Both the position numbers and the translations under genes were made by a program. From contig OX387203.1 of assembly GCA_947561715.1 (NCBI GenBank), forward strand, positions 6,758,001 to 6,822,000: a stretch of 64,000 nucleotides of DNA, in the 5' to 3' direction. Shown piece by piece: positions 15,101 to 64,000 of the stretch. The stretch is from Ascidia mentula. Its lineage: Eukaryota > Chordata > Ascidiacea > Phlebobranchia > Ascidiidae. The notes under the pieces were generated by a model, which did not search any database, was not told where the DNA came from, and worked only from the letters and a program-made list of their open reading frames with translations. Numbering within the stretch: position 1 is the first letter of the stretch; the number at the start of each line of letters is the position of its first letter.

Positions 15101-18052
15101 TGATCCCAAAATGTTTGTGTCTTCATCCCCTAGGTTACTTTGGTGGTACGCACCACGAAATGTTTACCTCCAAGTAGTACGCAACCACAAAAAGGTTGGG
15201 AATCACTGGGCTAGTGGCTGTACATGTAATGCACTGTGAACAATACATTGATATAATGCTTTGGGCAATGTGGTACTCACATAAACTGTATTACCGAAGA
15301 AGTTTTAGCCAACTCTACGTACCTATTCCATGCAGGCGGTTACACTATCCCGAAATGTGCCAACGTAGATGATTACCGTTCTGCCATTGAAAACCTTCCA
15401 GGAGTTGATTCCCCTGAAGTTTTCGGCCTCCATCCGAACGCCGACATATCCTATCAAACCAACACGGCTAATCAGGTAAGCCCCGGCTCTCACAAAAGAG
15501 AAAATATAGTGTCCAGAATGCTTCGACTTAAATCCCGAAAAGAGGAATATCTATTTATTTTGTTGCCTATAAGATTCGTTTTTCGAGATAACATGTAATG
15601 AGTATGCAAGAAAACATTTTGGAAACAGTGCATGTTATATAGGCAATACCTGAGTTTGCCAAAAGCTGCACTGATGACACTTATTAGACCGTAAAAAATA
15701 GTTTGAAAATTACATTGTATAGTACAGTATTTCTTTTCAAATAATAATCTGGGGCCATTTAACCCAACGCCGTTTCAATATCACTTTTACTAAAATTATA
15801 TTCTTTGTGTAGGTCTTCACTACGATCCAGAGCATCCAGCCGAAGGACTCTGGAGGCGGAGGAGGGGAGACAAGAGAAAGTGTGGTCGATCGTCTGGCTG
15901 TCGAGATGTTGGAAAAACTTCCTCCGGATTATCTTCCTCACGAAGTCAAGGATAGGATCATCAAGATGGGGATTACCGACCCCCTAAACATTTTCCTGAG
16001 ACAGGAAGTGGGTTTTGAGAATCAGATCAGATTCTTGTAGTGTCTATAGTACTTGCTGGTGCACTGTTTTGACAAGAGACTGACTGTTAAACATTTGCAC
16101 GAGCTTTCGCGAGCTTAATCTCGCTTCCTCAGGTGCTGTAAAGGAGGCGAGAATAAGCTTGTTGTTGTCGAAATTTGTGTTTTGTATATTTTTCATAACG
16201 ACAAAAACCATCGTGAAATTTATGTTAATTCGGTGGTTTGTGATAAATATTCGATGCTTGTGGAAAAATAACATATAGTGACAGCAAAAATACAATGCAT
16301 GAAAATTTCAAGAAGTTTGTGGGAATTGGATTGCAATTGGGTCGAAATAATGTCGACATTGGTAACCCTATGCATCAAAACATCTTGCTTCTATGTTACA
16401 ACAACCAACAAATACGCAAAAATTAATCACTACGGCATGTTTAACAACAATATTTCAGGTGTTTCTAGCGGTGGAGGTCGTATATTTCCTCGCCTTCTTG
16501 GCAATTTTAACTCGCGTGTACTATAGGTCGACCGAATGCAGAAAGTGATCAGCGCGGTTCGAACAACTTTGACAGATCTCCAGCTTGCTATCGAAGGAAC
16601 TATTATAATGAACGAAGCTTTGCGGGATGCGCTGAACAGCATATTTGACGCTCAAGTACCCGTGGCCTGGACCAAGGTATAGGAGGACATAAACAATTTG
16701 TTGCAAGTTTGTATGTAAACCATACAAAGTTCTCAACGTCCATGAACCGGCGATGTACTCGTCCTTATAAAGACATACACACAGAAAACGTTGACATTTT
16801 GTTTGGAGACGAATTTGCTTGCGTTTGCTTCCTTCTGAACGGCTAGACAGTTTAATATGGAAACAAAATTTGCTCGTCTTTATGCGACGATATTAAAACG
16901 AAAAAAATGCAAAATTGAAACGATATTCCATTTGGGAACTTCTGGAGTAAGCTACGTGTGAGCGAAGTGGAGCCACGTACAATCCTTATATAATTTAGAT
17001 AAATCCTGATTGTTTATTGAGATTTCTTTTACTAATATATTCTTGTAAAGATTTCCTGGGAATCTGCAAGCATTGGGTTTTGGTTCAGCGGTCTGCTGGA
17101 TCGCAACGCTCAATTTCGGACTTGGCTTTTTGAGGGAAAACCCCATCAGTTTTGGATGACCGGATTCTTTAACCCCCAGGTAAATTCTTTCGTCAATTTA
17201 CCGTCAAAAACCTCAAGCTGGTATGCTGTTGTTTTCCTCAATGAAATTACCTAGTGGCAATACCAAAGATATCAAATCACCACTTTAACAACACTTATTT
17301 TTGAAATCGACTTTTTTCCAACGCCACTTATGCGTGACACAGGTGGAAACTTCACATTTAAAATTACAATATAAATATCCTCGTGTTACGGGGTTATTTA
17401 TAATGTAATTTTGTAAACTTCCATTTCTTACAACCTAATTAAATTACAAATCATCTTCCGATTACACTTCCTGTGCAACCTTTGTCCTTGTCTTAACCCA
17501 GGGATTCCTTACTGCCATGCGGCAAGACATTACCCGGCACCATCAGGGTTGGGCACTTGATGGCGTGGTACTGCACAATGACATCACAAGGATGACAAAG
17601 GAAGAGGTGACGTCACAGCCGGATGAGGGGGTGTACGTCTATGGACTATTCTTGGACGGCGCAGGCTGGGATAAAAGGAACATTCGTTTGACTGAACCTG
17701 GAAATAAGGTTCTGACTTAAAGTTATTCGTTGTTTTCAAATCAGCCTTAAACATTGTAAACCTTGCAGATAACAAAACCTATTGCTGTCAGTAAAGAAAT
17801 AGCTTTTTCTTTTTACGACAGGTTCTGTTCGCAAACTTGCCAGTTGCTCACGTCTACGCAATCAACGCCACAAGCAAAGAATGCGCAGTGAAAAGCAGAG
17901 CCGGTCATACCTTCTACGAATGCCCCGTCTATAAAAAGCCAAAGCGTACTGATCTTACCTACATATTTCCCCTGAAACTCAACACCACTTTGTCACACGG
18001 CGCAGACAGATGGGCTCTCCGAGGCGTTGCCCTGCTTTGTGATACAAAGTAG
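181..18052 (+). CDS. DNAH5/DNAH8: Axonemal outer-arm dynein heavy chain, DNAH5/DNAH8 type (5'-truncated by window)
   Basis: ATP-driven motor of the ciliary outer dynein arm. About 41 exons (roughly 2,130 residues) join in frame. The first is about 181-420 with an uncertain acceptor; then 926-1069, 1293-1465, 1687-1879, 2183-2335, 2557-2697, 3062-3155, 3345-3493, 3636-3790, 4098-4251, 4610-4774, 5157-5345 and onwards to 17051-17179, 17502-17708 and 17822-18052. Visible landmarks are the AAA3 P-loop GEQGTAKT (926-1069), Walker [11 protein letters not shown] (1293-1465), [15 protein letters not shown] (1687-1879) and the AAA4 P-loop GVGGSGKQ (3636-3790). The stalk coiled coil spans 6167-8843, with the microtubule-binding segment beginning [13 protein letters not shown] at 6903-6998. 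The C-terminus [10 protein letters not shown] ends in TAG. Family similarity to DNAH5/8 is high throughout and no frame break was seen. The N-terminal tail, AAA1 and most of AAA2 lie left of the window. Confidence 0.95.
2731..2815 (+). repeat. SINE-like dispersed repeat, copy A1
   Basis: Starts AGCTGCAGACAG and carries the block CTCATCAGTGCAGCT. It is a short, diverged copy of the family also seen at 10677-10787 and 32476-32586, and lies in a dynein intron just after the exon ending at 2697. Confidence 0.6.
5430..5647. mobile_element. hAT-type MITE, copy 1 (218 bp)
   Basis: Ends are CAGTGTTTCCCAGCC and GGTTGGGAATCACTG, typical hAT terminal inverted repeats. It is flanked by an 8-bp target duplication, gtttaaaa at 5422-5429 and gtttagaa at 5648-5655 (7 of 8 match). 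No coding capacity. It sits in a dynein intron between the exons ending at 5345 and starting at 5714. A homologous copy lies at 14985-15208. Confidence 0.88.
10677..10787 (+). repeat. SINE-like dispersed repeat, copy A2
   Basis: Shares AGCTGCAGACAG, CACTGTTTC, ACCTGT, TCTCATCAGTGCAGCTG and a GCTAGC...ACTAGC block with the copy at 32476-32586. It is intronic in the dynein gene. No target duplication or poly(A) tail was recognised. Confidence 0.65.
14985..15208. mobile_element. hAT-type MITE, copy 2 (224 bp)
   Basis: Homologous along its whole length to the element at 5430-5647, sharing for example GGCATTCCAGGTGGTAC and TTCATCCCCTAGGTTACTTT. Ends are TAGTGTTTCCCAACC and GGTTGGGAATCACTG. The 8-bp target duplication is ggctggtg at 14977-14984 and ggctagtg at 15209-15216 (7 of 8 match). 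It lies in the intron between dynein exons 14766-14919 and 15336-15475. Confidence 0.88.
16040..16140 (-). repeat. Retroelement-tail-like repeat with hammerhead-like core 1
   Basis: On the minus strand CTGAGGA (16126-16132) is followed by the stem GCGAG/CTCGC and then GAAAG (16104-16108). The adjoining tail, read on plus as ATAGTACTTGCTG...CACT.TTTTGA, recurs at 61143-61210. It lies in a dynein intron. See findings for the ribozyme-like reading. Confidence 0.5.
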
Positions 18053-41715: not shown

Positions 41716-44700
41716 ATGGTGAGTTTTTTTTAGTTACTCTCACCGAACTTATTGGGAGTCAATTTGCTGGCGCTGCTGTTTCGAATTGCATGAATTACTG
41801 TCTCCAATACGCCAACGTGAGAGAAGTTCGTGGTGTTTTAAAGCATGTGATAGAATTATTGTCGAATCGCTTCAGACTTGTTCGACATGTGTGAGACCTC
41901 TATGGAGCTCGCACCCCGTTGATTAGCTCAAGTCTGTTAAGTATAAGGAAATAGAAGTGTTACTGTCTGTATAATGTCCTCCAGGAAGGTAGGCACTTTG
42001 TGTTTGCAACAGGTTAACGGGATTCGTATGTAAATTGCTGTTATTCCACTGCTAATATATGTTTCTAACTTATACCTAAAATACCAATACATACTTCTGT
42101 AAGTCACTAATGAACAAATTTCAATTCGCAAGCAATATGTAAACGCTACAGCAACGCATGAGGCAACGCCCAGTTCCGAACTGAACAGCACAGTTTTGTC
42201 GCTTGTCAAAACTGACATGCTATACCCCTATCGTTAAAACAGTTAACGCCTGTCTGATGCATCCGCTTTGTGCTTTCACTTCCAGCGCGAATGCATTTCC
42301 ATTCACGTCGGCCAAGCTGGGGTCCAGATCGGCAACGCATGTTGGCAACTTTACTGCCTCGAGCATGGCATTGGGAAGGACGGAAAGCTTGAAGATCATG
42401 CTAATAGCAAGGACGAGTCGTTCAGCACCTTCTTCAATGAATCAGGGTCTGGAAAACTCGTGCCAAGGTCAATTTTTGTTGACCTAGAGCCAACAGTACT
42501 CGGTAAGACAGTCGGGGCATTGTTGCACTTAAACAAGGGTGTCAAGCATATGTCTACATTGAGGAACATTATTTAAAACAGAAACTTGAAGTATATAATA
42601 CCCAATGTCGTTTGTTAGGGTGTGGTATAATGCAAACAATGTGATAACGCCATCATCTTCATAATGTTTCCTAATTTGTTTAAACGTTTGCGACAAACCA
42701 TCTACATAATCCTCTCGCCAGATGAGATACGGACAGGCGAGTACCGTTCTCTCTTCCATCCTGAACAGATGATATCGGGAAAGGAAGATGCGGCTAATAA
42801 CTACGCCAGAGGACACTACACTGTTGGTGAGTACTAAGCCAGCTGTGTTTGCGTTTTCCCCCCGCAAACAGGACGTATTTAAATACCCGCTGCAAACAGT
42901 ATGTGCTGGGCGTTGTAGAAACGGGCCGGGCTGTTAGGAACTCTTGGCTATGCAGCCTGGCCCAAGGTGTTGAAGCACTGTGTAATTTAGTTAAGTTATT
43001 GATGTTGTACAAACAGGAAAGGAGAAGATAGACGAAACACTTGACAAAATTCGCAAGGTTTCCGATCAGTGCAAAAGTTTGCAGGGGTTTCTTCTGTTCC
43101 ATTCGTTTGGTGGAGGTACAGGTTCGGGATTCGCGTCACTTCTTCTTGAACGCCTTTCAATTGACTACGGTCGAAAGTCAAAGCTTGAATTCGCCGTATA
43201 TCCGGCACCCAGGGTAAGCAAAAGTCGTTTGTAATTTTGCAATTTAAAATCATTAATCAACTGCAACAGAGAAGAAGTATAACTATTTGTTGAATGTTTT
43301 CTTTCAGTATCAAATTTGTGTATAGGTTTTGAACATTGTTTTAACTAAATTATTACCGGAGAAACTTTACCAAAGTTATTTTATTTAATAGCATAGATCA
43401 CTAAACAAGGAATTAAACTTTTAGCGAATAATCGATGTTTGCCTTAACTAGTTTCACTATACAGTTTCCAATTCCGCGATTCTTTACAGATATCAACAGC
43501 AGTTGTGGAGCCTTACAATTCGGTATTGACCACGCATACTACATTAGAACACACGGACTGTGCGTTCATGGTCGACAACGAAGCCATCTACGAGATCTGC
43601 AAGAGAAATCTTGGCATAGAACGGCCAAATTACTCAAACCTGAATCACCTGATTGCGCAAATTGTCTCCTCAATTACTGCTTCCCTCCGATTTGAGGGCT
43701 CGCTTAACGTTGACCTAACAGAGTTTCAGACCAACCTTGTCCCTTACCCTCGTATACACTTTCCTCTTACGACGTATTCTCCTATTATATCCGCCGAGAA
43801 GGCCTATCATGAGCAATTCTCCGTTGCCGACATCACCAGTGCTTGCTTCGAGCCCGAAAACACAATGGTAAAGTGCGATCCGCGAGGGGGCAAGTACATG
43901 GCGTGTTGTATGCTTTATCGTGGTGATGTGGTGCCCAAAGACGTAAACTCGGCTATTGCGAACGTCAAGAGCAAACGATCCATCCAGGTTGGTTCTTGTT
44001 TAAACCTAAGTCTGGTAAATTAAGTAAAAAATGTTTTCCAGCATTATATTTCCAAAACTTTTTCTAAATTTACAATATAATTCTTTTTTTCTGAGTGATA
44101 TTATAAATCAACATACTTTTGCAGTTTGTTGATTGGTGCCCTACGGGTTTCAAAGTTGGAATCAATTCCCAGGCCCCAACCGTTGTTCCAGGAAGTGGCA
44201 TGTCTAAGGTGCCACGTGCCCTGTGCATGCTCAGCAACACCACTGCTATAGCGGAAGCTTGGGGAAGGCTGAACCATAAGTTTCAACTGATGTACTCCAA
44301 ACGGGCCTTTGTTCATTGGTAGGAAGATTTTGTTGCAGTAGTTTGCAAAAGATTGACACCATGTCACTGTTTTACTAATTAAAACATAAAACCAACTAGG
44401 ACCATGAGGTTTGCAGGCTTGGCAGCCCAGGCAATGCTTGTGATCGCCAAGCAAGGACCTGCGCAGTGGGGCGATCCTGCCTATCATGCCATTGCATGTA
44501 ATATTACTGCGTAAAACCAATATAGTGGGTTTTTTGGGAGTTTAAAGTTGTCACTACAAAATGCATGGATAAACCGTCTGCATTCTGCACAAGGCACGTA
44601 TATTTTACGACCAAAACTAATTGCCTTTTTTCTCACCGGTTATCAGCAGCCGTACTTTTACCTCGCTGTATCGAAACGTTTACTGATCAAACAATATAGG

Positions 44701-50305: not shown

Positions 50306-52755
50306 CTAAGCATGGGCATGCAACACATGGTCACAGGGGTTTTGACAGAAATGCTTTATCATGTCTTCGTAGTGCTTCTGTGTCAGTTCATCGAAACTGC
50401 GATCAAACACGAATAGATGTTCTTCCTCTCCAGTAATCTCCAGGAATTGTTCGCGGTCCAAGACGTATCCGTCCGTTTCGAAAGTTTCAAAGGCAAAAAC
50501 GTACACCTGGATGCAGAATTCATGGTGTGTTATTTTTACCATCTGCGTGCAATTGTGGCTGCAAATTTTTTGCCCCACAAAAGTTTTGGTTCCAAGTACA
50601 GAGTATTTTCACCACAAATCTGATCTCCATATGATTCACTTTCTCCTTTTTTTGAAAGGTTTATGTAACTTACAAGGATGTCACGTCTTCTTGCTTCTGC
50701 TATCGCGTCCTTAAAATCATCGTCTGAGTTCCTGTTTGTCACAACAGAAATAGCTTTCGGTACTCGGCTGTCTCTCATACCAGCTTCAGGCGTCAGAAGG
50801 TTGTCTAATGCGTATTGGATTGCCGCTCCAACGTTCACTGGTCCTGCAACGAATCGAAAGGATAATACTGTAGTTCAGAATTGCCAGTGTGCTATTTAAA
50901 AATCGTACAAGTTTATCACTCAGGTTTCGGTGCTTAATATCGTTAATGTCACTAAAGAAAAATATTTCTTGGGAAGTGTGTACTACTACAAGATCTAGGC
51001 TTATTTGCCACCATTCAACACAATTTTAATTTCCTGTCTAGACTTGACAACGCATTTTTGCTAACCGATAAGAGTCAAATTATCACACAAAATTGTTTGA
51101 ACGCATTTGTGCATACCATTGTTCACCACGCGAATGCGTTCCTTTGACAGTTCCAGAAGTTGGTCGATAGTAGCATTGTACTCGTTAAACTTTATGACGC
51201 CTTCCACATTTTCACTAAAATACGCGATTGACGAAAGAGTCGCATCCTCGGCAATCACGCCACTACAACAAATAAAAAAAATTGCAAAAATTTGCAGGTG
51301 TGGCATCTTAGGGCAGGACGAAGTAAAGCTTACTCGCTACTTTGAGACAGCAAGTTGTCTAAGATCACTTGGCCACCTTCCCCGCCCAAATGGTAAAGAG
51401 AGACGGAGTCGTAGAGAAAGTACGGTGGACAAGGTCCTAAAAAACAAAGCACATTAGTTTACATAGAAATCGTAAAAATATAGATACTTTGTTCTTTTGA
51501 ATTTTACTTTTAACGTCATTTTCACGAAAGAGAATCCAAAAAAAAACAATGTACAAAATAAAAACGTATAGATTTTACGATTCAATATTATCAATTATGT
51601 CCGGTTTCCTGTGTTTTGGGTCCATTAAACTAATGTAGTATTTGGGTTTTACTCACTTGCGCAACACGGTTGCTCATGTGCCCAGGATCCGTTTCTAAGG
51701 CAAACGTTGTTGTTTCGGTTCGCCGGCCACACTGCGTAGTCTTTGGTCGTGCATTTGTATTCGCAAATAGCGCCAGCATTGTTCTCGTTGTAACACTCAA
51801 TTTCGCCGTGTGGAAAGGTTGTCGGTGCTGCAGGGCAGTCGTTTGCCGCTAGAATAATAGTTACACACGTGAGGTTGTGTTATTTTTTCAACAATAAATG
51901 TTTCTTGGCAACCGCTTACTTTGTGTTGAAATTTTTTGTGCTTTTGAATTTATTAACAAATGCAGATGGAAAAGAATTGTTACTACTTCTGTTCGTCATT
52001 TTCCTGATTATTTAGTACAATAAGGTGATAACGCAATGTTACCTGGCCCCGACACTTCGTAATGTGTGACACAAGTGGGCGCTCCGGCGTTGCACAAATT
52101 CGAGTCACAGCAGCATGAACATACTGAGTTGCTCTGATCCGCGTTGCATTGCGTTGATCTCCCCGATGCTTTCGGGTTCTAATCGATTTTCACAATAATT
52201 AACGTTCATACACTTGGTTAATCCACAGCGTGACAAATAAATTGGGCTTTTAGATTTTCGTTTCTTACCTGCATCTCGTTGTTTTTGCAAGCCATGGTGT
52301 CTTTGCATCCCTTGGTCACTTGCAGTTTGTTCTCATATCGTCTTACTGTCGTTTCGCACGAATTCTACAAACGTTGTGCTCAAATTAAATCTTTAATGAC
52401 GTTATTAAGGGTGAATAAAACCGCTGCTACATGCGACAACCTTATACAGCAATTCATGATCGGTGAATAAAACTAAACCAACCAAAGTAGCTTCTTCTCG
52501 ACCATTAATACCAAGTACATTATATGTTTTGTATGAAGTTATCATATACCTGGTTTGGCATGCATTCAGTTATTATTCCAGTCACGTCACATTGTATGAA
52601 CCCGTCAGCTCCATGACACGTCATGCACTTCAAGGCTAAAGTTGAAACGGTCAATGTCAATGCAACTTTTAAGTAAACCCACAAGTATATATCTTACCTT
52701 CAACATAGTTTGCAACACCCAACAGAACCACAGAAAGGAAACCAACGACCTTCAT
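50306..52755 (-). CDS. LU-CCP-vWA secreted protein, array gene 1
   Basis: Nine coding exons, transcribed right to left: 52698-52755, 52550-52635, 52269-52364, 52043-52178, 51657-51848, 51334-51436, 51117-51262, 50674-50843 and 50306-50506; 395 residues. Signal peptide MKVVGFLSVVLLGVA. Ly6/uPAR domain about residues 20-105 (ALKCMTCHG, SCETTVRR, TKGCKD, ending CCDSNLCN). Sushi/CCP about 107-172 (CPAAPTTFPHGEIECY, GSWAHEQPCC). vWA-like region about 173-395, recognised from KFNEYNATIDQL, AIQYALDNLLTPEAGM and KAISVVTNRNSDDDF. The usual DxSxS metal motif is replaced (YHLGGE), and the TD of strand 4 is TN. The C-terminal block CQNPCDHVLHAHA follows the vWA fold. There is no membrane anchor or protease domain, so it is probably secreted. 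It is the most diverged of the four complete copies. Confidence 0.85.
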
Positions 52756-53531
52756 ACTTGTACTTCGCACGGTATTCTTACAATAAGCTACTTGTGTGAA
52801 GACCCACCGAGACTATGAATTCAGTCTTATGTCGACCAACACTAAATCCCCTTAATTTATATATTTTTTAAGGGTCAACCAGTGGCCCGCGGCTAGATAT
52901 AATTTATATCAGACAAGCGTGTTTAGTCCTTGTAAGGTTTGTTATCCTTTTACACGTCGTTAATGACTATTTAATCGTTGCTGGTGTCAAGGGTGATTTG
53001 ATGCGCTGGTGTCAAATAGGTCCGAATCGTAAACAAGGCGTATAAAGTTGTAAAAGCTGCGTGTGTTATTGCAGGTACGGTAAAGTTGTGTTGTTTGTTT
53101 TTGCTTCCTATTTTAACTCTTTCACTTTTCTAAACCTCAAATGGCATGTCGCCATCTTATGCAATGATAAGGTGACTGTATCATATAATATTTTTGTTTA
53201 TTGCATTAGTTGGCTATAGTTTTGCTGTATAAAATCTGGAGCACAAACTTTAGTCTTGCTACAAACTCACTTAACCGAATAACTTTCTGCATTTGTATTC
53301 ACCTACATTTCAATCATGATTATGTAGTTCACAAATTTTTTATTGATACCAAACCATAATATAGAAGGGCAGTATTCAGCAATAAATATGCCTGGCAGCA
53401 TCGGTAACAATTTACACCATAATATAGCCTGCAACATGTTAAATCACCGAAACAAAGCAAAACATACATTCAATCGCATAATCAGCGGGGTCGAATAGAC
53501 AATACTCGTGGTTACTCGTGGTTACTCGTGG
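52756..53531. other. Spacer between array genes 1 and 2
   Basis: Promoter side of gene 1 and 3' side of gene 2. No coding exon. It contains the 10-bp tandem repeat at 53503-53542 that runs into the stop codon of gene 2. Confidence 0.5.
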
Positions 53532-53542
53532 TTACTCGTGGT
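53503..53542 (-). repeat. 10-bp tandem repeat overlapping the stop codon of array gene 2
   Basis: On the minus strand CCACGAGTAA, which contains the last His-Glu codons and TAA, is repeated about four times head to tail. Confidence 0.85.
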
Positions 53543-55710
53543 CATGCATTATATGTACACACGGGTTCTGGCAAAAATGCTCCATCTCGTCAGCTATTTG
53601 GGCTTCCAAGACTGCTTCGTTGTTGCCGTATAAGTCAAATCTAAATATGTGATCTTTCTCGCCAGTGAAATCCAAGAGCTTCTGTTCGTCGAATTGGTAA
53701 CTGTCACGGGTGATTAAATACAGGAACAACTGCAGGGTACAGAAAATATGGTTACACAAGGCTTTGAATATTGAGCGTTGTGATATTGAGCGTAACATCT
53801 ATTTTACCAGAATGCCCCGATCTCTTGCTTCTTGGGCGACGTCTTTTACGTCATCATCCCAGTCCCGGTCTGTTAAAATTGAGATGGCTTTCGGTACTCT
53901 GTTGTCTCTCATTCCTGCCTCAGGGGTAAGAAGGTTGTCCAGTGCGTAGCGTACCGCTCTTGCAGCGTTGGATGGACCGCGAAACGCGCCTATAGGAATA
54001 TAGTGTATATATTTTTGCGTTTGACTAACTGAATAAATTGTTTTTGTCTTACTTAAATTGGCAAAACAGAAAAGCTTCGTTAAATGGCTTGTATTACTGG
54101 AGTTACTCTACTTGCATGTGAGGACACATGTATTCTTGATTGCGCTCTATGATTTTGCTATAGGGTGTAAAACTAAATCCCACTGCATAGTTTGTTTTAC
54201 TTTGAACATTGTTGATTGTTTCATTGCTTCGGTTTGTTAAGTTGGGTTACAGATTTAAGTTTACTTTCGTCAACATTGTTGATTCTTTCCCGTCCCAGCT
54301 GGTTTAGTAGAGTGGCGTTGGTTCCGTACTCGTTAAACTTGATAACGCTCGACTTAACAACATCTTCACCGAAGTACAGGACCGATAACTTCACGCTGTC
54401 ATTCGCTATAACTCCACTACAAACACAAATAGATATTATAAGGTACTGTGAAAGTCGTGACAGAAAGGTGGCGAAAAAAATAAATTGCCTTTAACGCGAT
54501 TTAAGACACTGTATTAAAGTGAAGAAAAAGCAGAAAAGTTGGTCATAAGATTTTCATTCATTCTTTAATTATAGCTGCTCGTACCTTTGATCCAAATATG
54601 TATAACATCTTGTTGTGGAAAAGGTATAGAGCGAGGATGTATGTTAAATTTGTCAACGACAAATACTTTTACAACTTACTAAGCAAGGTCATCAGCCGTA
54701 ACAAATTGGAAAGACTTTTCCGCGTCTTCGCCGGAAAAATGATACAAGAACACATCGTCATACAACATATAAGGCGGACAAGGACCTGGAAATATTTTAA
54801 ACATAATTTTTTTGATATTTTATTTTTAAGAAATCATTGTTCTTAGATTAGCTTTGTGATTATACAGCAGTACTTACGGGCACAGCAAGGTTGTTCGTGG
54901 GCCCACGATCCATTGCCACGACAGACATTGTTGTCACGTGCTGAAGGCCACACTTCGTAATCTTTCCCTGTGCATTGATATTCACACACCGACCCTGCTT
55001 TGTTATCGTTGTAGCATTCAATATTTCCATGGGGGAAGTTTTGTGGCACGGCTGGGCAGTCGTTAACTGCGAAAGCCATTCGCTGATTAAGACTGTTATG
55101 GTTGTAATATGTACAAACCTTTACCTGGGCCTGTGTTTTGGTAATGCGTGACACAAGACGGCGTACCAGAGTTGCACAAATTTTCGTTACAGCAACAAGT
55201 GCAGACAGAGTTGATTTGATCGGAATTACATTGATTTGATTTGCCGGAACGTCCGTAGTTCTTTGTTGATATTCAAAAATAAACTAAAAAATTAGAAGGG
55301 CTTTGTTTTTTCTGGCCGGGCAACATACCTGCATAAAATTGTCTCTGCACGCTCTTGCGTCTTTGCAACCTTTCGTAATGGACAAGCTACCGCCATGTCG
55401 TCTGACAGTGGTTTCACAAGATCTCTGTGACAAATATAAGCTTGTCAAATATTATAAAACATTATTACAACATCCAGGCTTTTTAGTTGAAATTGTCACC
55501 TGATTAATTCTGCATTCCTCCAACTTTCCAGTCACGTCGCATTCTTCAAAGCTGCTTGCCCCGCGACATCTCATGCATTTAAGTCCTTTTTTAATGTATA
55601 GAATTTAGTAAAATCCATTATTATGTATTGTTATTGTAACACATCACATACACACCTTTTCCTAAGGCAAATATTCCAACCAGGACACACACAAATGTCA
55701 GCCTCTTCAT
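53532..55710 (-). CDS. LU-CCP-vWA secreted protein, array gene 2
   Basis: Nine coding exons: 55656-55710, 55500-55585, 55329-55424, 55125-55260, 54878-55066, 54680-54785, 54265-54416, 53808-53989 and 53532-53729; 399 residues. Signal peptide MKRLTFVCVLVGIFALGKG. LU domain about 19-107 with LKCMRCRG, SCETTVRR, TKGCKD and CCNENLCN. CCP about 108-170 (CPAVPQNFPHGNIECY). vWA-like about 171-399 with KFNEYGTNATLLNQL, AVRYALDNLLTPEAGM and SILTDRDWDDDV. The first metal motif is YHFSGE instead of DxSxS, while the TD pair is kept. C-terminal tail CQNPCVHIMHDHE. Exon lengths match genes 3 and 4 except the first and last. The upstream 200 bp resembles that of gene 3, pointing to recent duplication and shared regulation. 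Confidence 0.87.
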
Positions 55711-56724
55711 ATTTTGCAGTCCAACTTGCCAATTTAAAAGAAAGCTGTATCTTGAAGGTAAAACATAAATTTCTTATTTCAAACACTTTCCAGTTATTCC
55801 GATATTAATAACCTTCTTCTCTGTGTTGTGACTGAATGTTCATGGACCTAAGTTGCTATGCTCAACAAACCCTTAACATTATTCCTGGAAAGACTTTTTA
55901 AGTAAAAACTTGCCTTCGGGCGTTGACTGGTTTTGCAGTGTTACCGGCACAATAATAATTCTGCATTGAAGTTGATGTAGTTCGACCGGTTTTGACCAAA
56001 ACAAGACACATGTCATACTTGAGCATTTACCTCGCTGCATATGAATATAGCTTTCGCTATTCTAAATTTGTGTTTATGCTAAGCAATCGAGTTTAGCTCA
56101 TATGTTTGGTTTTTCTTCTCTTTTCGTTTACATAATATTTGGTGTCTTCCTTTTTAACCACCTAAGTGTTTAAAATAAATACTGAAGGTTATATTTATGA
56201 ACATGGGATGGCAAGTCTCAATTCTACTTTCAGCAAAACTCTCAGAAATTGTTGCCTGTTTTTTTAGCTAAACTCTATATATCAACCATGACCTATTAGT
56301 CATCTTTTACGTTTACCGTCTTCTCCTCACAACCCAAAACCAATAGCGATGAACATGTACAGATCAATAATCACGACCCCACACATTTGTAATTAGTAGA
56401 ACCATAATATAATCTTTCATAAACTTTTCAAACCTTGATGATTTTTGAAACATGATTTCTCAGATTTGTATTTTTGTCCAGGCGGAATCGCTTCAATCGT
56501 CGTATTGCTACCTTAGTCAGGTTATAGAGGGAATACTAATGTGCTTTAACTGTTAATTAGGTTACTGTTTAAAATGTACAATCATTTCTAAAGTACAGTC
56601 ACCAGATTAGTAATTTTACAAAAAGTATTCTGAAACATACAACGTGTTTTATCACAATATAAATCAAATGGTAGAATCGAGGTAGGGTCTCAAAGACATA
56701 ATCAAAATCAATGCTGTTGAATAC
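55711..56724. other. Spacer between array genes 2 and 3, with duplicated promoter block
   Basis: About 55808-56005 is similar to 59172-59365 upstream of gene 3, sharing AACCTTCTTCTCTG, AGACTTTTTAAGT, CTTGCCTTCGGGCGTTGAC and GGTTCGACCGGTTT-like blocks. The remainder shows no coding exon. Confidence 0.6.
55808..56005 (-). promoter_or_regulatory. Duplicated upstream block of array gene 2
   Basis: Begins about 100 bp upstream of the gene 2 ATG (minus strand). Conserved with the block at 59172-59365, in non-coding sequence. Conserved islands such as CTTGCCTTCGGGCGTTGAC are candidate regulatory sites, or simply residue of recent duplication. Confidence 0.4.
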
Positions 56725-59083
56725 TTATGGCTGCTGGTGGTCATGTAAAATATGTACACACGGGTCTTGGCAAAAATGCTCGAACAAGTCAGCTATTTGG
56801 GCTTCCAAGACTGCATCGTTGTTTCCGTATATGTCAAATTTGAAGATGTGTTTCTTCTCCCCGGTGAAATCCAAAAGCTTCTGTTCATCGTATTCGTAAT
56901 TGTCGTGGTCGATTAACAGCAGGTACAGCTGTACATTGCAGAAAGTAGAGTTACACTGTGGTCGCTGTTTGTGTCTCAATTGTAATGTGTTTTAGCGACA
57001 GGCCGAATCTTGTTTACAATGTAGGCACTACGACGCGTCGGGAAGTGTTTTAAGCTTGGTATGTGAAAATGTAGTACGGAAATGCGGATTTTAGCATTTT
57101 CGCGTTTTCGATATACTTTGTGCACATATTTTGAACAAACACTTTTTTTTGCTCCAAAGCATTGAAATGAAGCATTGCGAATACTTCATTGCAAAAGTCT
57201 TGTCATATCTGGCATTAAACATAACATCTATTTTACCAGAATGCCTCGATCTCTTGCTTCTTGGGCGACCTCTTTTACGTCATCATCCCAGTCCCGGTCT
57301 GTTATAATAGAGATGCCTTTCGGTACTCTGTTGTCTCTCATTCCTGCCTCAGGGGTAAGTAGATTGTCCAGTGCGTATCGCATTGCTCTTGCAGCATTGG
57401 ACGGACCACCAAATGCGCCTTTAGAAATATAGTTTGTGTGATGTTAAGCTGCTGTTCTCAATTGCTTTTCAATTGTTACCTTATTCTTTTAAGAGATTTG
57501 CTTTTGTCTATACCCTCAATTATTAGAGACGTGAAAGGGTTTGTGTAAAAAGTTTGCACTATTGACACTTTTAAATTTGATAAGGAGGACACCCGGATTG
57601 TTAGTTGGTTTGGAAATAAATCTCCGTAAACTATATTTTTTTAACTGAAGCTTTTGCTCCAACCTATATGTTTGATTTAGAATGTAAGAATTTATTTACT
57701 GCTTCGTTTTGTTAAGGCGCGTCATAAATTTAACTCTTACTTTTGTCGACATTGTTGATTCTTTCCCGTCCCAGATGGTTTAGCAACGTGGCGTTGGTTC
57801 CGTAATCGTTAAACTTGATGACACTTGACTCGATAACATCTTCACCGAAGTACAGGGCCGACATCTTGACACTGTCTTCTGCTATTACTCCACTACAAAC
57901 ACAAATAGATGTTGTCAGTTACTGTGACATTCGTTAGATATACAGAAACAAAAGAGCCGTAATCATTGAGCTATTATGTATGTTAAGAGAACATAAACCA
58001 TCTTACTAAGCAAGGTCATCAGCCGTAGCAAATTTGAAAGAATTTTCCGCGTCTTCGCCGGAATAATGGTACATAAACACATCGTCAAACAACATGTAAG
58101 GTGGACAAGGACCTGAAAATATTTTAAACAAACTATTTCTTGATTTTCACATGATTTTGTCATTGTGCATTAATGAAAAGATAGTATTCTTACATTTACC
58201 CTGTAATTACTCGGGCCATTCTCCAGTAAATAATTTGTTATGATGCATGTATACACATGCGTACTTACGCGTACAACAAGGTTGTTCGTGGGCCCATGAT
58301 CCATTGCCACGGCAAACGTTATTGTCACGTGCTGGAGGCCACACTTCGTAATCTTTCCCTGTGCATTGATATTCACACACCGACCCTGCTTTGTTGTTGT
58401 TGTAGCATTCAATATTGCCATGGGGGAAGTTTTGTGGCACGGCTGGGCAGTCGTTAACTGCAGAAACATTCTTTTGATTGATATTGTTGTTTTGAAGCAT
58501 GCATAGATTATATTTACCTGGGCCGGTGTTCTGGTAATACGTTACACAAGATGGGGCACCGGAGTTGCACAAATTTCCGCCGCAGCAACAAGTGCAGACA
58601 GAGTTGATTTGATCAGAATTACATTGATTTGACTTTCCGGAACGTCCGTAGTTCTTTGTTCATGTGTCAAGGGAAACAACAAAATTAAAGGCTTTTGTTT
58701 TTGTTTACAGTTCGTACCTGCATAAAATTGCTTCTACACGCCCCTGCGTCTTTGCAGCCTTTCGTGATTGTCAAAGTAACGCCACGTCGCCTAACAGTGG
58801 TTTCGCAACTTCCCTGCAACAATTTTTAAACACCATTACTACACCCAAGCTTTTTTCGTTGAAATTGGCACCTGGTTAATTCTGCATTCCTCCAACTTTC
58901 CAGTCACGTCGCATTCTTCAAAGCTGCTTGCCCCATGACATTTCATGCATTTAAGTCCTTTTTCAATGCATAAAATTTAGTAAATGGCCTAATTGTGTGT
59001 TTTCATTATAACACATTACACATCCCACCTTTTCCCAATGTAAATACTCCAACCAGCACGCAAACAAATGCCAGTGTCTTCAT
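56725..59083 (-). CDS. LU-CCP-vWA secreted protein, array gene 3
   Basis: Nine coding exons: 59029-59083, 58872-58957, 58718-58813, 58518-58653, 58269-58457, 58007-58112, 57741-57892, 57237-57418 and 56725-56928; 401 residues. Signal peptide MKTLAFVCVLVGVFTLGKG. LU domain about 19-107 (LKCMKCHG, SCETTVRR, TKGCKD, CCGGNLCN). CCP about 108-170, differing from gene 2 at only a few residues. vWA-like about 171-401 with KFNDYGTNATLLNHL, AMRYALDNLLTPEAGM and SIITDRDWDDDV. The MIDAS-1 position reads YHYSGE. The tail is CQDPCVHILHDHQQP, slightly longer than in gene 2. All splice sites are GT-AG with the same phases as the other copies (1,0,0,1,1,2,1,0). Confidence 0.87.
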
Positions 59084-59171
59084 ATTGCAGTCCCTAGTGT
59101 CAGTGAAACAAGGTGTATCTTTTAGTTAAAACAAATTGTTAAACTCTCATTTTAAATACTCTCTGAATTTT

Positions 59172-59365
59172 TAACCTTCTTCTCTGCATTGTTACTGGAT
59201 GTTCATGCACCTAAGTTGTTGTGTTCAACAAATCCCTATCATTATTCCTGAAAAGACTTTTTAAGTGAAAGCTTGCCTTCGGGCGTTGACCGGTGTTACA
59301 GTGTGGCCATTCAAGTCACTGTAATAGTTCTGTATTTAAGTTTATGTGGTTCGACCGGTTTCGAC
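59172..59365 (-). promoter_or_regulatory. Duplicated upstream block of array gene 3
   Basis: Counterpart of 55808-56005, at a similar distance from the gene 3 ATG. Shares AACCTTCTTCTCTG, ACTTTTTAAGTGAAAGCTTG, CTTCGGGCGTTGACCGGT and GTTCGACCGGTTT-like sequence. Confidence 0.4.
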
Positions 59366-59478
59366 CACAACTATTCTACTTGCGTCTTTTTAAAAAATAA
59401 AAAATAGCTTTTCCTTTTCTAAATCTGCATTGAAACCAAGCAACTAAGTTCTTCTTATTTTGCTTTGAAGCATTGAAC

Positions 59479-59574
59479 CTGTGTAGATTTGATTCTGCAT
59501 GCTCCTGCGTCTTTGAATCCTTTTGCAATGGTCACGCTACTGCCATGTCCCCTAACAGTGGTTTTGCAAGATTT
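59479..59574 (-). pseudogene. Orphan LU-domain exon 3 relic
   Basis: Exactly 96 nt, like exon 3 of every array gene, with acceptor GGCAG and donor GTTCAA still present and an open frame. It encodes SCKTTVRGHG...AKGFKDAGAC, where the family has SCETTVRR...TKGCKD.. AC. One structural Cys is replaced by Phe. No neighbouring exons 1, 2 or 4 of a further copy were found, so it looks like the remnant of a deleted gene. Confidence 0.8.
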
Positions 59575-59767
59575 CTGCCTTCGACTTTCCTATACCTTCC
59601 ATCTTCTCTGCATTGGATAATACGTTTATTTGTATTGACATTTTTAGACATGTTATCATACCCAAACTTACAACGTTATTAATCACCACATGAAACAAAC
59701 ACTTTCCAGAAAATGCTCTTGATGGAATTTTCTGTGGGGCATAAACGAAGCGGTCAAAGGTCAAACG

Positions 59768-62700
59768 TTACTCGTGGTCATGCAAAACATGTTCACATGG
59801 GTTCTGACAGAAATGCTTGATCAAGTCGGCCATCTGGGCCGCAAAAACTGCATCGTTGTTTCCGTTTATGTCAAGTTTGAAAATGTGATCTTCTTCTCCC
59901 GTATAATCAAGGAGCTTCTGTTGGTCGTATTGGTAACTGTCACGATTGGTTAAGAACAGGAACAACTGCAAAGGCAGAAATTTATTTAGATCAAGGAATG
60001 TTCCGAAGACCTTTTTTCGAAATTATTTCAAAATTGGCCTAATTTTGGAAGCCAATAATCGGTGTAATCTGGACCGAAACCGAATATTTCAAGACGTCAT
60101 AAATTTGCACATTGGTTGAAAACCTGTCCTTTTGTCGACTTTCGCCAGAGTTTCATTTATGCAATCCCATACTTATGCATAAATCCTGGCAACAATTAAT
60201 GCACTTTTATTTGCCTGATCACGAATATTCGGAATCAGTCCAGCAAATATTGTTGTTCTTGTGTGAATTTTATGTCTTTTACCCACAAGAAAAATCTGCA
60301 AACATTGCCAAGCGTGGCCACGGTGAAGCGTGCTCGCGTTAAAAAACTATTGTTCAAAAATGTTGATTTTCAATGAATTCGTGTTCTGACCAAAAGTGGA
60401 TTTGTTCAGACGTCTAAAACTTTTATTTTAATCTTCTGGAACTAATTTAGGAAAAAAGATTTTATGTTTATTGCAAAGCTTTAAAATGAGGCGTTGCAAA
60501 TGCTATATCGCACAATTTGTGGTAACCGTGTGGTAATAAAAGGTATCATATGTTTTACCAGAATGCCTCGATCTCTTGCTTCTTGGGCGACCTCTTTTAC
60601 GTCATCATCCCAATCTCGGTCTGTGAATATTGAAAGGCCTTTAGGTACTCTGCTATCTCTCATTCCTGCCTCAGGGGTAAGAAGGTTGTCCAGTGCGTAG
60701 CGTACCGCTCTTGCAGCGTTGGATGGACCACGAAATGTGTCTTTAGAAATGTAGTGTATGTTATGTTAGATAGTCACAGTTTTTCAAACGTTTTTTGCGT
60801 TTTTGTCCTACTGTATAAATGTTTTGAATTCAAAGCTTGTATCACGTTGAAAGCATTTTTTTGTTTGTAGAAAAGATGAAACAATTTCTTTTGTGATTCA
60901 GAATTTACCCACTGGATCTATTCCGATTGAAAAAAGTTTAAAATCAATATTCCCAACACCCAGGCTTTCCAGATATGAAAATGGTTCAGCTGAGCTATTT
61001 CGTACTGATGTACACATGATATGTTTGCAGTTTCGACATAATATTGGCCAATCACTAATAACGTTTTTTTATTTTTAAATACTGTTTCATAGTTACATCA
61101 TTGTTTAAATCTGTCATAGATTTTCAAAACAAACAGTAAAGGCCATAGTACTTGCTGCACTATTTTGAACAGACGGACTGATGAACTACTCTTTAACATT
61201 GAGAATGACTGTAGTTACAATCGAAATGTTTAAAAATCAATTTATTTCCCAGTTACATGGGCTTTACTGTTTGTTTTGAAGATTTATAAAACCGTGAGTT
61301 ATGTTTCTAACGTCATAGATTTAACTTTTACTTTCGTTAATATTCTCTAATCTTTCCCGTCCCAGCTGGTTTAGCAGAGTGGCGTTGGTTCCGTACTCGT
61401 TAAACTTGACAACACTCGACTCAACAACATCTTCACCGAAGTACAGGGCCGAGATCTTCATGCTGTCTTCTTCTATTACACCACTGCAACCACCAACGAA
61501 TGATGACTGTTACCGTGGAAGGTATGCCAATATATGTTAGTTTTTAAATAACATTTGCAGTCTCGACTGTGGTTGTGAGATTATGTAGCAACCGAAAAAA
61601 CGAACAGAGACTTGGTTTTATGATTTCTATGCATTTCTTTATGATTTCTATTTATTTTTTATGGTTTCTACATCTTTTATGTGATTTAACACTGGTTCAG
61701 TTTTTCTGATCATAGAAATCCTGCTTAAATAAGTATGTTAAAAGCACAAACTTTTTTGGGATCTTACAAAGCAAGATCATTATCAGTAATCCAGTAATCA
61801 AATGATTTCTCCGCGTCTTCGCCGGAAAAATGATACAATAACACATCGTCATACAACATGTAAGGCGGACAAGGACCTAAAAATAGCACAGACACAAAGT
61901 TTTTCTTGTTTTTATCGAAAAAAGATAAAATTTGTTTTCAAAAATAATTAAACATGTGAATTCTCTGGTTACACATTAAAGAAATATATTTATTATAGGC
62001 CCAGCTCTATTTAATGTCATTAACACTTACGAGCACAGCAAGGTTGTTCATGCGCCCACGATCCATTGCCACGACAGACATTGTTGTCACGTGCTGGAGG
62101 CCACACTTCGTAATCTTTTCCTGTGCATTGATATTCACACACCGACCCTGCTTTGTTATCGTTGTAGCATTCAATATTGCCATGGGGGAAGTTTTGTGGC
62201 ACGGCTGGGCAATCGTTAACTGCAAAAATCTGCTGTGCCAGTCTGTTATAGTTGTAATATGTATAAACCTTTACCTGGACGCGTGTTCTGGTAATATGTG
62301 ACACAAGACGGCGTACCAGAGTTGCACAAATTTTCGTTGCAGCAACAAGTGCAGACAGAGGCAATTTGATCGGAATTGCACTGGTTTGACTTTCCCGCAC
62401 GTGCGTTGTTCTGGAGGATCAAAGCACTTAAAAACGCCCCTTTAGGATTTTAGAATACAAATTTTACCTGTAGTTGGTTGCTTTGACATGCTGTGGCGTC
62501 TTTGCATCCTTTGGAGATCACTAAACGGTCGTTATGCCGTCTCACAATTGTTTCACACGTTTTCTGTTATGAGACAGTTCAATGTGTTGAAAGCATGATT
62601 AGTAACTCAAGAATTTAGAAAAAAAATCGGTCTTAGGCCTACTATTGTCTGTTTAATGTTGGTTAGTTGCATGCCTTCCATAAGGTGCACACATCTATTA

Positions 62701-62992
62701 CACAAAGCTTGCATTAAAGTGATGTATTGTTTTTGTTACACAGAGCATCAATTTAAGAAATTTAGGAGCGCACTTGGTTTATTCGGCATTCTTCTATCCT
62801 TCCATTAACATCGCACTCCTCAAAGCTAGTTGCACCATAGCAAGTCATGCATTTCAACCCTAAAAAGATTCCATGAGGCTCCCAGATTACCGTTCGGTCT
62901 CTTTTTATGATCTTACCTGTAGCAACTGTGATTAAGCTCACCAAAATGCAGAAGTCAAAAAGATGCATCATCCTTACTTTCGCCGCGTGCAT
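59768..62992 (-). CDS. LU-CCP-vWA secreted protein, array gene 4
   Basis: Nine coding exons: 62917-62992, 62774-62859, 62468-62563, 62275-62410, 62031-62219, 61768-61876, 61332-61483, 60559-60740 and 59768-59965; 407 residues from the first ATG. Internal Met-Met codons (62971-62966) may be the true start, giving the signal peptide MMHLFDFCILVSLITVATG. LU domain about 26-113 (LKCMTCYG, TCETIVRR, SKGCKD, CCNENLCN). CCP about 115-177, nearly identical to genes 2 and 3. vWA-like about 178-407 with KFNEYGTNATLLNQL, AVRYALDNLLTPEAGM and SIFTDRDWDDDV. The MIDAS-1 position reads YHFSGE. Tail CQNPCEHVLHDHE. The introns are the longest of the complete copies. It differs from genes 2 and 3 mainly in the LU exons. 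Confidence 0.87.
61143..61210 (+). repeat. Partial copy of the 16040-16140 repeat tail
   Basis: CATAGTACTTGCTG.CACTATTTTGA...GACTGATGA matches the outer part of the element at 16040-16095. It lies in an intron of array gene 4. Confidence 0.5.
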
Positions 62993-63374
62993 CTTTATCT
63001 GACGTAACCGTTTGAACTTAGTTTACAAATTAAGCAAAGTTAGTGATGTTTAAACGTGCCCCCAAGGCTAGACTGACCAAAACTGACCGGGGCAGACCTT
63101 TTCTCATAGTGCAAAATCATAATTATACATGTAGAGATACGATATGAACAAGGCTGCAGAAATCCCCAAGCCTACATTGCATTGGTCTATAAGCCGCTAC
63201 CCTCTTCACGGGATTCAAATCAAATCAAATGCACATGTACTTAGAACACCCACTGAGTTTTGAATTTTATTGAGAGGTTAACAATCACACTCCTGACAAA
63301 ATCTATGTTACGAACATTAAATTAGGGTATTGGAAATTTTGGTGTTGATCATGTAAGGTTGACCAATTTTGTCT
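62993..63374. other. Spacer between array genes 4 and 5
   Basis: Short non-coding spacer, the promoter side of gene 4. It lacks the block duplicated upstream of genes 2 and 3. No other feature seen. Confidence 0.5.
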
Positions 63375-64000
63375 TTATGCCAAGCGATCGAGCATCACGT
63401 AATCGCACGGGTTGCTACAAAAATGCTTCATCCATCCGGCGAACTCCTCTGGAGTGATGGCACTTAGAGGATGATCATAAACAAACACCTGCTCTGGCGA
63501 GCCTGTGATTTCCAGCGTCTGATTTCTGTCCAACGTGTGACCCTCCACTTCCATTCCCCAAAAGTACATCTGAAAGGAATATATAAGAGCATAAATACCC
63601 GCCATTCTGTAGGTATGACGGCCAACATTCGCAGAAGTTTTTGATACGCGACAAAGCAATCCGCAAAGAATTTTACACTCATAAAAAGTTATTGCTGTTT
63701 TTCACTGAAAACTCAATGCCTTACTCATTTGCAAGATTGATAAAAACTATTTATTGCTTATTTAGGAACATATTCCCCGGGGTTTAAAAAAATTCAACAC
63801 GATCATCTGTGCAGATACATCAATAAATATTAACTATGTTGGCCATTTCACACATTCTTAATGTCGTATACTACCTTGACACCTTCCCTTCTTGCTTCCG
63901 CAGCTGCGGATACGACGTCGTCGTCAGAATCTCGGTCCGTTACGACGGTGATACTTTTTGGTACGTGGTAACCTCTCATTCCGCTTTCACGAACGAAAAA
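63375..64000 (-). CDS. LU-CCP-vWA family member, array gene 5 (3' end only)
   Basis: Two exons are visible: 63875-64000 (continuing beyond the window) and 63375-63569, joined in phase 0 as in the other copies. They encode the second half of the vWA-like domain (ESGMRGYHVPKSITVVTDRD, SDDDVVSAAAEARREGVK) and the family C-terminus, with DRNQTLEITGSPEQVFVYD and CSNPCDYVMLDRLA before TAA. The final exon resembles gene 1 (LEITGEEEHLFVFD) more than genes 2-4, and the TD pair is retained. The signal peptide, LU and CCP exons should lie to the right of the window; their presence is inferred only from the array. Confidence 0.8.

Follow-up and report, generated by a model that had tools for sequence, protein, structure and literature searches.

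We describe here a family of predicted secreted proteins encoded in the genome of the ascidian Ascidia mentula (195.8 Mb in 79 contigs), one cluster of which lies in the stretch of 64,000 nucleotides that was analysed (the window: contig OX387203.1, here C71, positions 6758001-6822000). It is very probable that this is an ascidian family, expanded by tandem and dispersed duplication, whose members of approximately 400 amino acids (aa) are built of a signal peptide, a Ly6/uPAR (LU) domain, a complement control protein (CCP, sushi) domain and a von Willebrand factor A (vWA) domain. The modules are known ones, and their combination in this order is new. The initial annotation of the window knew of no described family with this order, and this holds within the scope of searches of an open-access paper library, which listed no paper describing it. 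That these proteins would act as adhesion adaptors without a metal ion is proposed more tentatively, with somewhat less than even confidence, and for the whole statement, taking family, architecture and secreted adhesion adaptor together, we consider the chances to be about even.

The members in the window, in window coordinates, are the following.

50306-52755, minus strand: g1 gene, 395 aa, nine exons, modelled from genomic DNA
52755-52698, 52635-52550, 52364-52269, 52178-52043, 51848-51657, 51436-51334, 51262-51117, 50843-50674 and 50506-50306, minus strand: exons of g1
52043-52635, minus strand: LU domain of g1, exons 2-4, from the cysteine pattern and LYPD1 profile match
51657-51848, minus strand: CCP domain of g1, exon 5, phase 1-1, from the gene model
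50306-51436, minus strand: vWA domain of g1, exons 6-9, Pfam VWA 58.6 bits (cut-off 23.8)
53532-55710, minus strand: g2 gene, 399 aa, nine exons; LU 55125-55585, CCP 54878-55066, vWA 53532-54785; VWA 49.6 bits and PDB matches
56725-59083, minus strand: g3 gene, 401 aa, nine exons; LU 58518-58957, CCP 58269-58457, vWA 56725-58112; gene model
59494-59577, minus strand: relic of LU exon 3 between g3 and g4, E 1.5e-6 to g2 residues 47-74
59768-62971, minus strand: g4 gene, 400 aa, nine exons; LU 62275-62859, CCP 62031-62219, vWA 59768-61876; VWA 43.9 bits
63375-64000, minus strand: window part of g5, with exon 9 (63375-63569) and most of exon 8 (63875-64044); gene model

For exon 8 of g1 the automatic model placed the acceptor at 50867; position 50843 was retained because it fits the family length. 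In g4 another in-frame ATG lies further up, at 62992. All four complete genes of the window share the exon-end phases 1, 0, 0, 1, 1, 2, 1, 0 and GT-AG introns, which bears out the identical nine-exon architecture and phases initially reported for them, and the two visible exons of g5 fit the same pattern, as had also been stated. The initial count of five head-to-tail genes on the minus strand was correct for the window, where four complete genes and one partial gene form a real array, but this array comprises nine copies (g1-g9), reaches from 50306 to about 77993 and thus continues beyond the window, and is one cluster among several in the genome. Gene g5 itself extends past the window to 66269, its seven remaining exons lying outside. 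No tenth family match at E<=1e-3 was detected within C71:6658001-6948000. The nine-exon pattern fits eight of the nine array copies; the exception is g8, where the frame is not kept in exon 2.

Further analyses were performed on a clean set of 16 copies, from which g8, c2a (contig C2, vWA out of frame) and b5 were omitted. Order, phases and spacing are alike in these 16 models, which are spread over three chromosomes, and the domain-border introns are all of phase 1, as expected from exon shuffling. As a chance control, a spliced family profile built from g1-g6 was run on 19 modelled copies. These scored between 633 and 1584, with 633-1053 for the 13 copies outside the profile; scores did not exceed -171 in 40 3-kb pieces taken at random from the 290 kb around the array, or -208 when the nine copies were scanned on the opposite strand.

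Two lines of evidence, the resemblance of its profile to LYPD1 and the cysteine pattern, support the identity of the LU domain. When the LU profile alone was compared with PDB sequences, LYPD1 was the best match (E 3.1e-5), followed by LYPD6B and LYPD6 (E 0.18-0.28); with the whole 12-member family profile LYPD1 was matched at E 9.5e-5. In LU domains in general, the disulfides pair cysteines 1-5, 2-3, 4-6, 7-8 and 9-10. The 12 aligned copies show no variation at the ten LU cysteine positions, at the closing CN or at four further cysteines, giving 14 invariant cysteines. Each of the 12 aligned rows conforms to the LU consensus of ten plesiotypic cysteines with Asn after the tenth, as given in a 2019 review (PMC6600238). 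According to the same review, the classical LU gene set has two coding exons, one intron at the tip of loop 2 and phase-1 flanks (PMC6600238); the family LU keeps the phase-1 flanks and departs from the two-exon form, being encoded in three exons with two phase-0 introns inside. One of the 12 members gave a sub-threshold Pfam match to a snake-toxin-like model (E 0.0087). A six-frame search of the genome with PF00021 returned no match anywhere, which is no evidence of absence, since the controls were equally empty.

The CCP domain is a single exon with phase 1 at both ends. Pfam Sushi exceeded its cut-off of 20.7 bits in two of 12 members (g9, 28.3; b1, 21.4), and the other ten were assigned by alignment, exon and phase. 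With the whole-family profile, the PDB sequences of DAF (E 0.01) and C1s (E 0.06-0.09) were matched, with values of 0.16 and above in another search. An N-glycosylation site (NxS/T) is present within the CCP of all 16 copies.

Pfam VWA was found in all 12 members tested, with 35.9-61.9 bits in the eight members whose scores were listed. Against PDB sequences, the 12-member profile had collagen VI alpha 3 as the top match (E 1.2e-40, several vWA copies taken together), and integrin alpha M, collagen VII and vWF were matched as well; the 16 matches of this profile at E<=0.1 include neither factor B nor C2. The metal-ion-dependent adhesion site (MIDAS) of vWA domains is made up of DxSxS plus a Thr and an Asp. 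It was read from an alignment of the 16 copies to four other vWA sequences from this genome in which DxSxS is intact. The Asp of the motif is replaced by His in 15 copies and by Tyr in one, and the GGTNTG stretch has lost its first Thr in all 16 (g2-g4 have Ser). Six copies (g2, g3, g4, g5, c52a and c52b) retain the later Asp, and the other ten have Asn; single Ser positions of the site survive in some copies. With the motif Asp and the Thr lost, a classical magnesium site in the family vWA is unlikely.

Secretion was assessed by scripted hydropathy in the 16 clean copies. All have a hydrophobic N-terminus, although the b4 model does not begin with ATG. Past residue 22 no 19-residue stretch averages above 1.25, except for one of 1.57 in c2b, and no copy has a hydrophobic C-terminus, so that neither a glycosylphosphatidylinositol (GPI) nor another membrane anchor is indicated, in which the family differs from CD59-type regulators. 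After residue 19 there are 24 cysteines in 13 copies and 25 in g9, c2b and c2c. In 13 of the 16 models an in-frame stop closes the vWA exon (none was placed in g9, c52a and c52b), and these models end there with no serine protease of the factor B/C2 kind after the vWA. Pfam detected no immunoglobulin (Ig) domain at E<=1 in any of 12 members, and hydropathy indicated no transmembrane stretch. The initial annotation had proposed the order of signal peptide, LU, one CCP and vWA, with neither anchor nor enzyme domain; the former agrees with Pfam, the profile matches, the cysteine pattern and hydropathy, and the latter with hydropathy and the Pfam scans.

Copies in the rest of the genome were listed by a tblastn-type search with g2 and a search with an LU domain. 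The g2 search scored 104 of 304 candidates, and the genome-wide counts are therefore lower bounds. At least 42 family CCP exons are present. Full order was counted where a same-strand LU match lay no more than 3 kb upstream, and a vWA match no more than 4 kb downstream, of the CCP exon. This was the case for 24 of the 42 listed exons, or for 23 after subtraction of b5 (C71:7.389 Mb), where the LU belongs to a neighbour and no LU occurs in the 1.2 kb upstream. The 23 loci are distributed as 18 on C71, three on C2 and two on C52. The vWA match listed closest to g8 is that of g7, yet the g8 model contains a vWA of its own; at one CCP exon a vWA lies within 4 kb on the opposite strand. The CCP exons listed for C72 and C70 have a vWA but no counted LU (LU matches near those of C72 being only 7.74e-4 or weaker), and most of those listed for C73 have neither counted. 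On C72 a run of CCP then vWA exons (6007744-6080027), with no counted LU, may be an LU-less or more diverged branch. It should be added that weak LU matches with a same-strand vWA downstream and no listed family CCP occur at C1:19278711-19280580 and C70:18045869-18051287, and that the clusters carrying this type of LU are mostly located on a single chromosome, over a span of about 3.6 Mb (C71:4.08-7.67 Mb), including LU-only matches at C71:7666930-7667688. A vWA-only relic was located at about C71:7378412-7379102. Such decayed copies and relics are what birth-and-death turnover in a tandem family would lead one to expect.

A related gene, L005, is located on the minus strand at C71:6576953-6580210. 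It carries the same LU type, which shares with the family LU a phase-0 intron after a Gln, and a downstream vWA; it differs from the family in that its metal-site motif is intact (DSSSS), at least three domains of the epidermal growth factor (EGF) type follow the vWA, and no CCP was seen. A second pair of LU and vWA is suggested near C71:6585452-6587852.

Mean identity between copies is 45% for the vWA, 57% for the LU and 60% for the CCP. In the LU-CCP tree, mostly unresolved, three of 13 inner branches were supported; in the vWA tree, with seven of 13 supported, the C2 copies group with g2-g4 and the C52 copies with g5, and the clusters are therefore not separate clades. Synonymous divergence (dS) was 0.6 or less in four of the 120 pairs among the 16 copies. 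The ratio of nonsynonymous divergence (dN) to dS was 0.21, 0.22, 0.42 and 0.19 in these four, and ranged from 0.04 to 0.49 across their 12 domain comparisons; the close pairs show the sequence signature of purifying selection. A search for positive selection, domain by domain and in windows along the pairs, found none: the nonsynonymous proportion (pN) exceeded the synonymous one (pS) in seven of 441 sliding windows from six pairs, two of these windows being without any synonymous change. Synonymous change was uneven among exons in four of the six pairs (P 1.2e-10, 2e-5, 7.7e-4 and 0.0046). Between c2b and c2c, 9 of 107 synonymous sites were changed in the LU-CCP half, versus 45.5 of 145 in the vWA half (P 6.2e-6). 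Exchange of exons or conversion between copies would be the simplest reading of such mosaics.

Each of the modules has known counterparts. LYPD1 and LYPD6, which are single-LU proteins, share the LU cysteine pattern and closing CN with the family, whereas the family LU is fused to a CCP and a vWA and itself carries the 14 invariant cysteines. Collagen VI alpha 3 and other matrix vWA proteins provide the closest vWA match, but the family lacks the collagen helix and the metal site and has a single vWA. Complement factor B and C2 have CCP followed by vWA, as here; they differ by their serine protease, by three CCPs rather than one, and by the Asp and Thr of the metal site. Proteins of the SVEP1 type, with sushi, vWA, EGF and pentraxin domains, likewise combine CCP and vWA in one secreted protein, are far larger, with other domains besides, and have no LU. 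The fester protein of Botryllus and the fester co-receptors also form an ascidian tandem family with one sushi domain; according to the accessible parts of the sources on them, this group has Ig domains and transmembrane segments, which our family does not, and no LU or vWA is named for fester in those parts. In the proteome of Ciona metamorphosis, VWFA and Sushi are reported among the commonest domains of changing proteins (PMC13225635).

From these observations we propose that the proteins would be secreted, disulfide-stiffened adaptors, i.e. three rigid modules in a small glycoprotein, acting by adhesion and not by catalysis. The LU loops and the top face of the vWA would each bind one protein partner without a metal ion, with the CCP as a spacer between them, and tandem duplication together with exon exchange between copies would produce a set of related adaptors. 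Their likeliest site would be the extracellular matrix or a body fluid, such as the tunic, the egg coat or the haemolymph.

A number of results weigh against this proposal or parts of it. The domain assignments made initially agreed with Pfam for VWA in every member tested and for Sushi in two, but not for LU, as UPAR_LY6 gave no match at E<=1 in any of the 12; Sushi stayed below the cut-off in the ten other members. The CCP fold prediction from four sequences was weak (mean predicted local distance difference test score, pLDDT, 62.7), and its top Foldseek match, a CCP protein, had E 0.99. As the full order was counted at just 23 of the 42 listed CCP exons, some members may have a different construction. 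The unevenness among exons was not significant in two of the six pairs (P 0.29 and 0.095). Moreover, the loss of metal residues could equally mean that the vWA is purely structural.

Among other explanations, the proteins might be soluble complement regulators or decoys, which would use CCP and LU to capture complement proteins, whether on the animal's own surfaces or on microbes, and so curb or guide their deposition; this we regard as unlikely. CCP and LU domains do occur in complement regulators, the genes are amplified, and the faint CCP likeness to C1s and DAF points the same way, but the CCP is single, no anchor is present, and the LU is nearest to LYPD1 and not to CD59. Furthermore, the binding of C3b by factor B depends on the metal site, which is missing from the family vWA. 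The link to complement drawn in the initial annotation remains in that CCP, LU and vWA modules are all present, and is weaker than proposed on account of the missing MIDAS, the proximity of the vWA to collagen VI alpha 3 and that of the LU to LYPD1.

Still less probable, at about one chance in ten, are ligands of the gamete surface or of allorecognition, with copies and alleles encoding differences between self and nonself. The family is large, its copies are exon mosaics with the vWA as the most variable domain, and the ascidian recognition candidates fester and vCRL1 have sushi domains. Such a role, suggested initially, is not favoured, since close copies appear to be under purifying selection (paralogues, and not alleles, having been compared), with dN/dS below 0.5 in every domain comparison and pN above pS in so few windows; the proteins also have neither an Ig domain nor a membrane anchor. 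Derivation from a protein of the factor B/C2 kind, by loss of the protease and acquisition of an LU, is very improbable: the CCP stands directly before the vWA, as in factor B and C2, but the closest vWA relatives in PDB and the loss of the metal site led us to drop this explanation, and L005, with the same LU type joined to a vWA with intact metal site and EGF domains and without a visible CCP, argues against it as well. Wrong joining of adjacent LU, CCP and vWA genes is the least probable alternative, for although the gene models rest on genomic DNA, the recurrence of order, phases and spacing on three chromosomes and the far lower scores of random and reversed DNA in the spliced-profile control speak against it, and it was dropped on the basis of that control.

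Other features were observed in the same window and genome. An open reading frame with tubulin domains (window positions 43448-44020; Tubulin_C E 2.2e-31) belongs to a plus-strand tubulin gene, and positions 15257-15595 hold a dynein heavy chain exon (AAA_lid_11, E 2.8e-9). The mitochondrial COX1 gene on contig C79 contains five internal TGA codons and is open under the ascidian mitochondrial code; an AGG codon stands at the Gly before Trp in its GTGW stretch, which we take to be a conserved position.

The strongest general point is that the LU domain behaves as a mobile module in this family. In the 2019 review, LU is considered probably not a bona fide mobile module because most of its occurrences are solitary or in combination with further LU domains only, with few other contexts named there, namely GPIHBP1, SP-10 and TGF-beta receptors (PMC6600238). 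The present family bears on this doubt: as LU is placed between phase-1 introns before CCP and vWA in the full-order loci, and before vWA and EGF domains in L005, its mobility becomes testable in one lineage. The consistent exchange of the motif Asp for His, seen in 15 of the 16 copies, raises the question of how such a vWA binds. It is also conceivable, if improbable, that we are dealing with an unrecognised soluble recognition system of ascidians, whose LU loops and metal-free vWA would read surface partners, and in which copy number and exon exchange between clusters would create individual-specific repertoires, as a humoral counterpart to the membrane-bound receptors of the fester type. 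The finding adds a large, uncharacterised family of proteins, predicted to be secreted, to those of ascidians.

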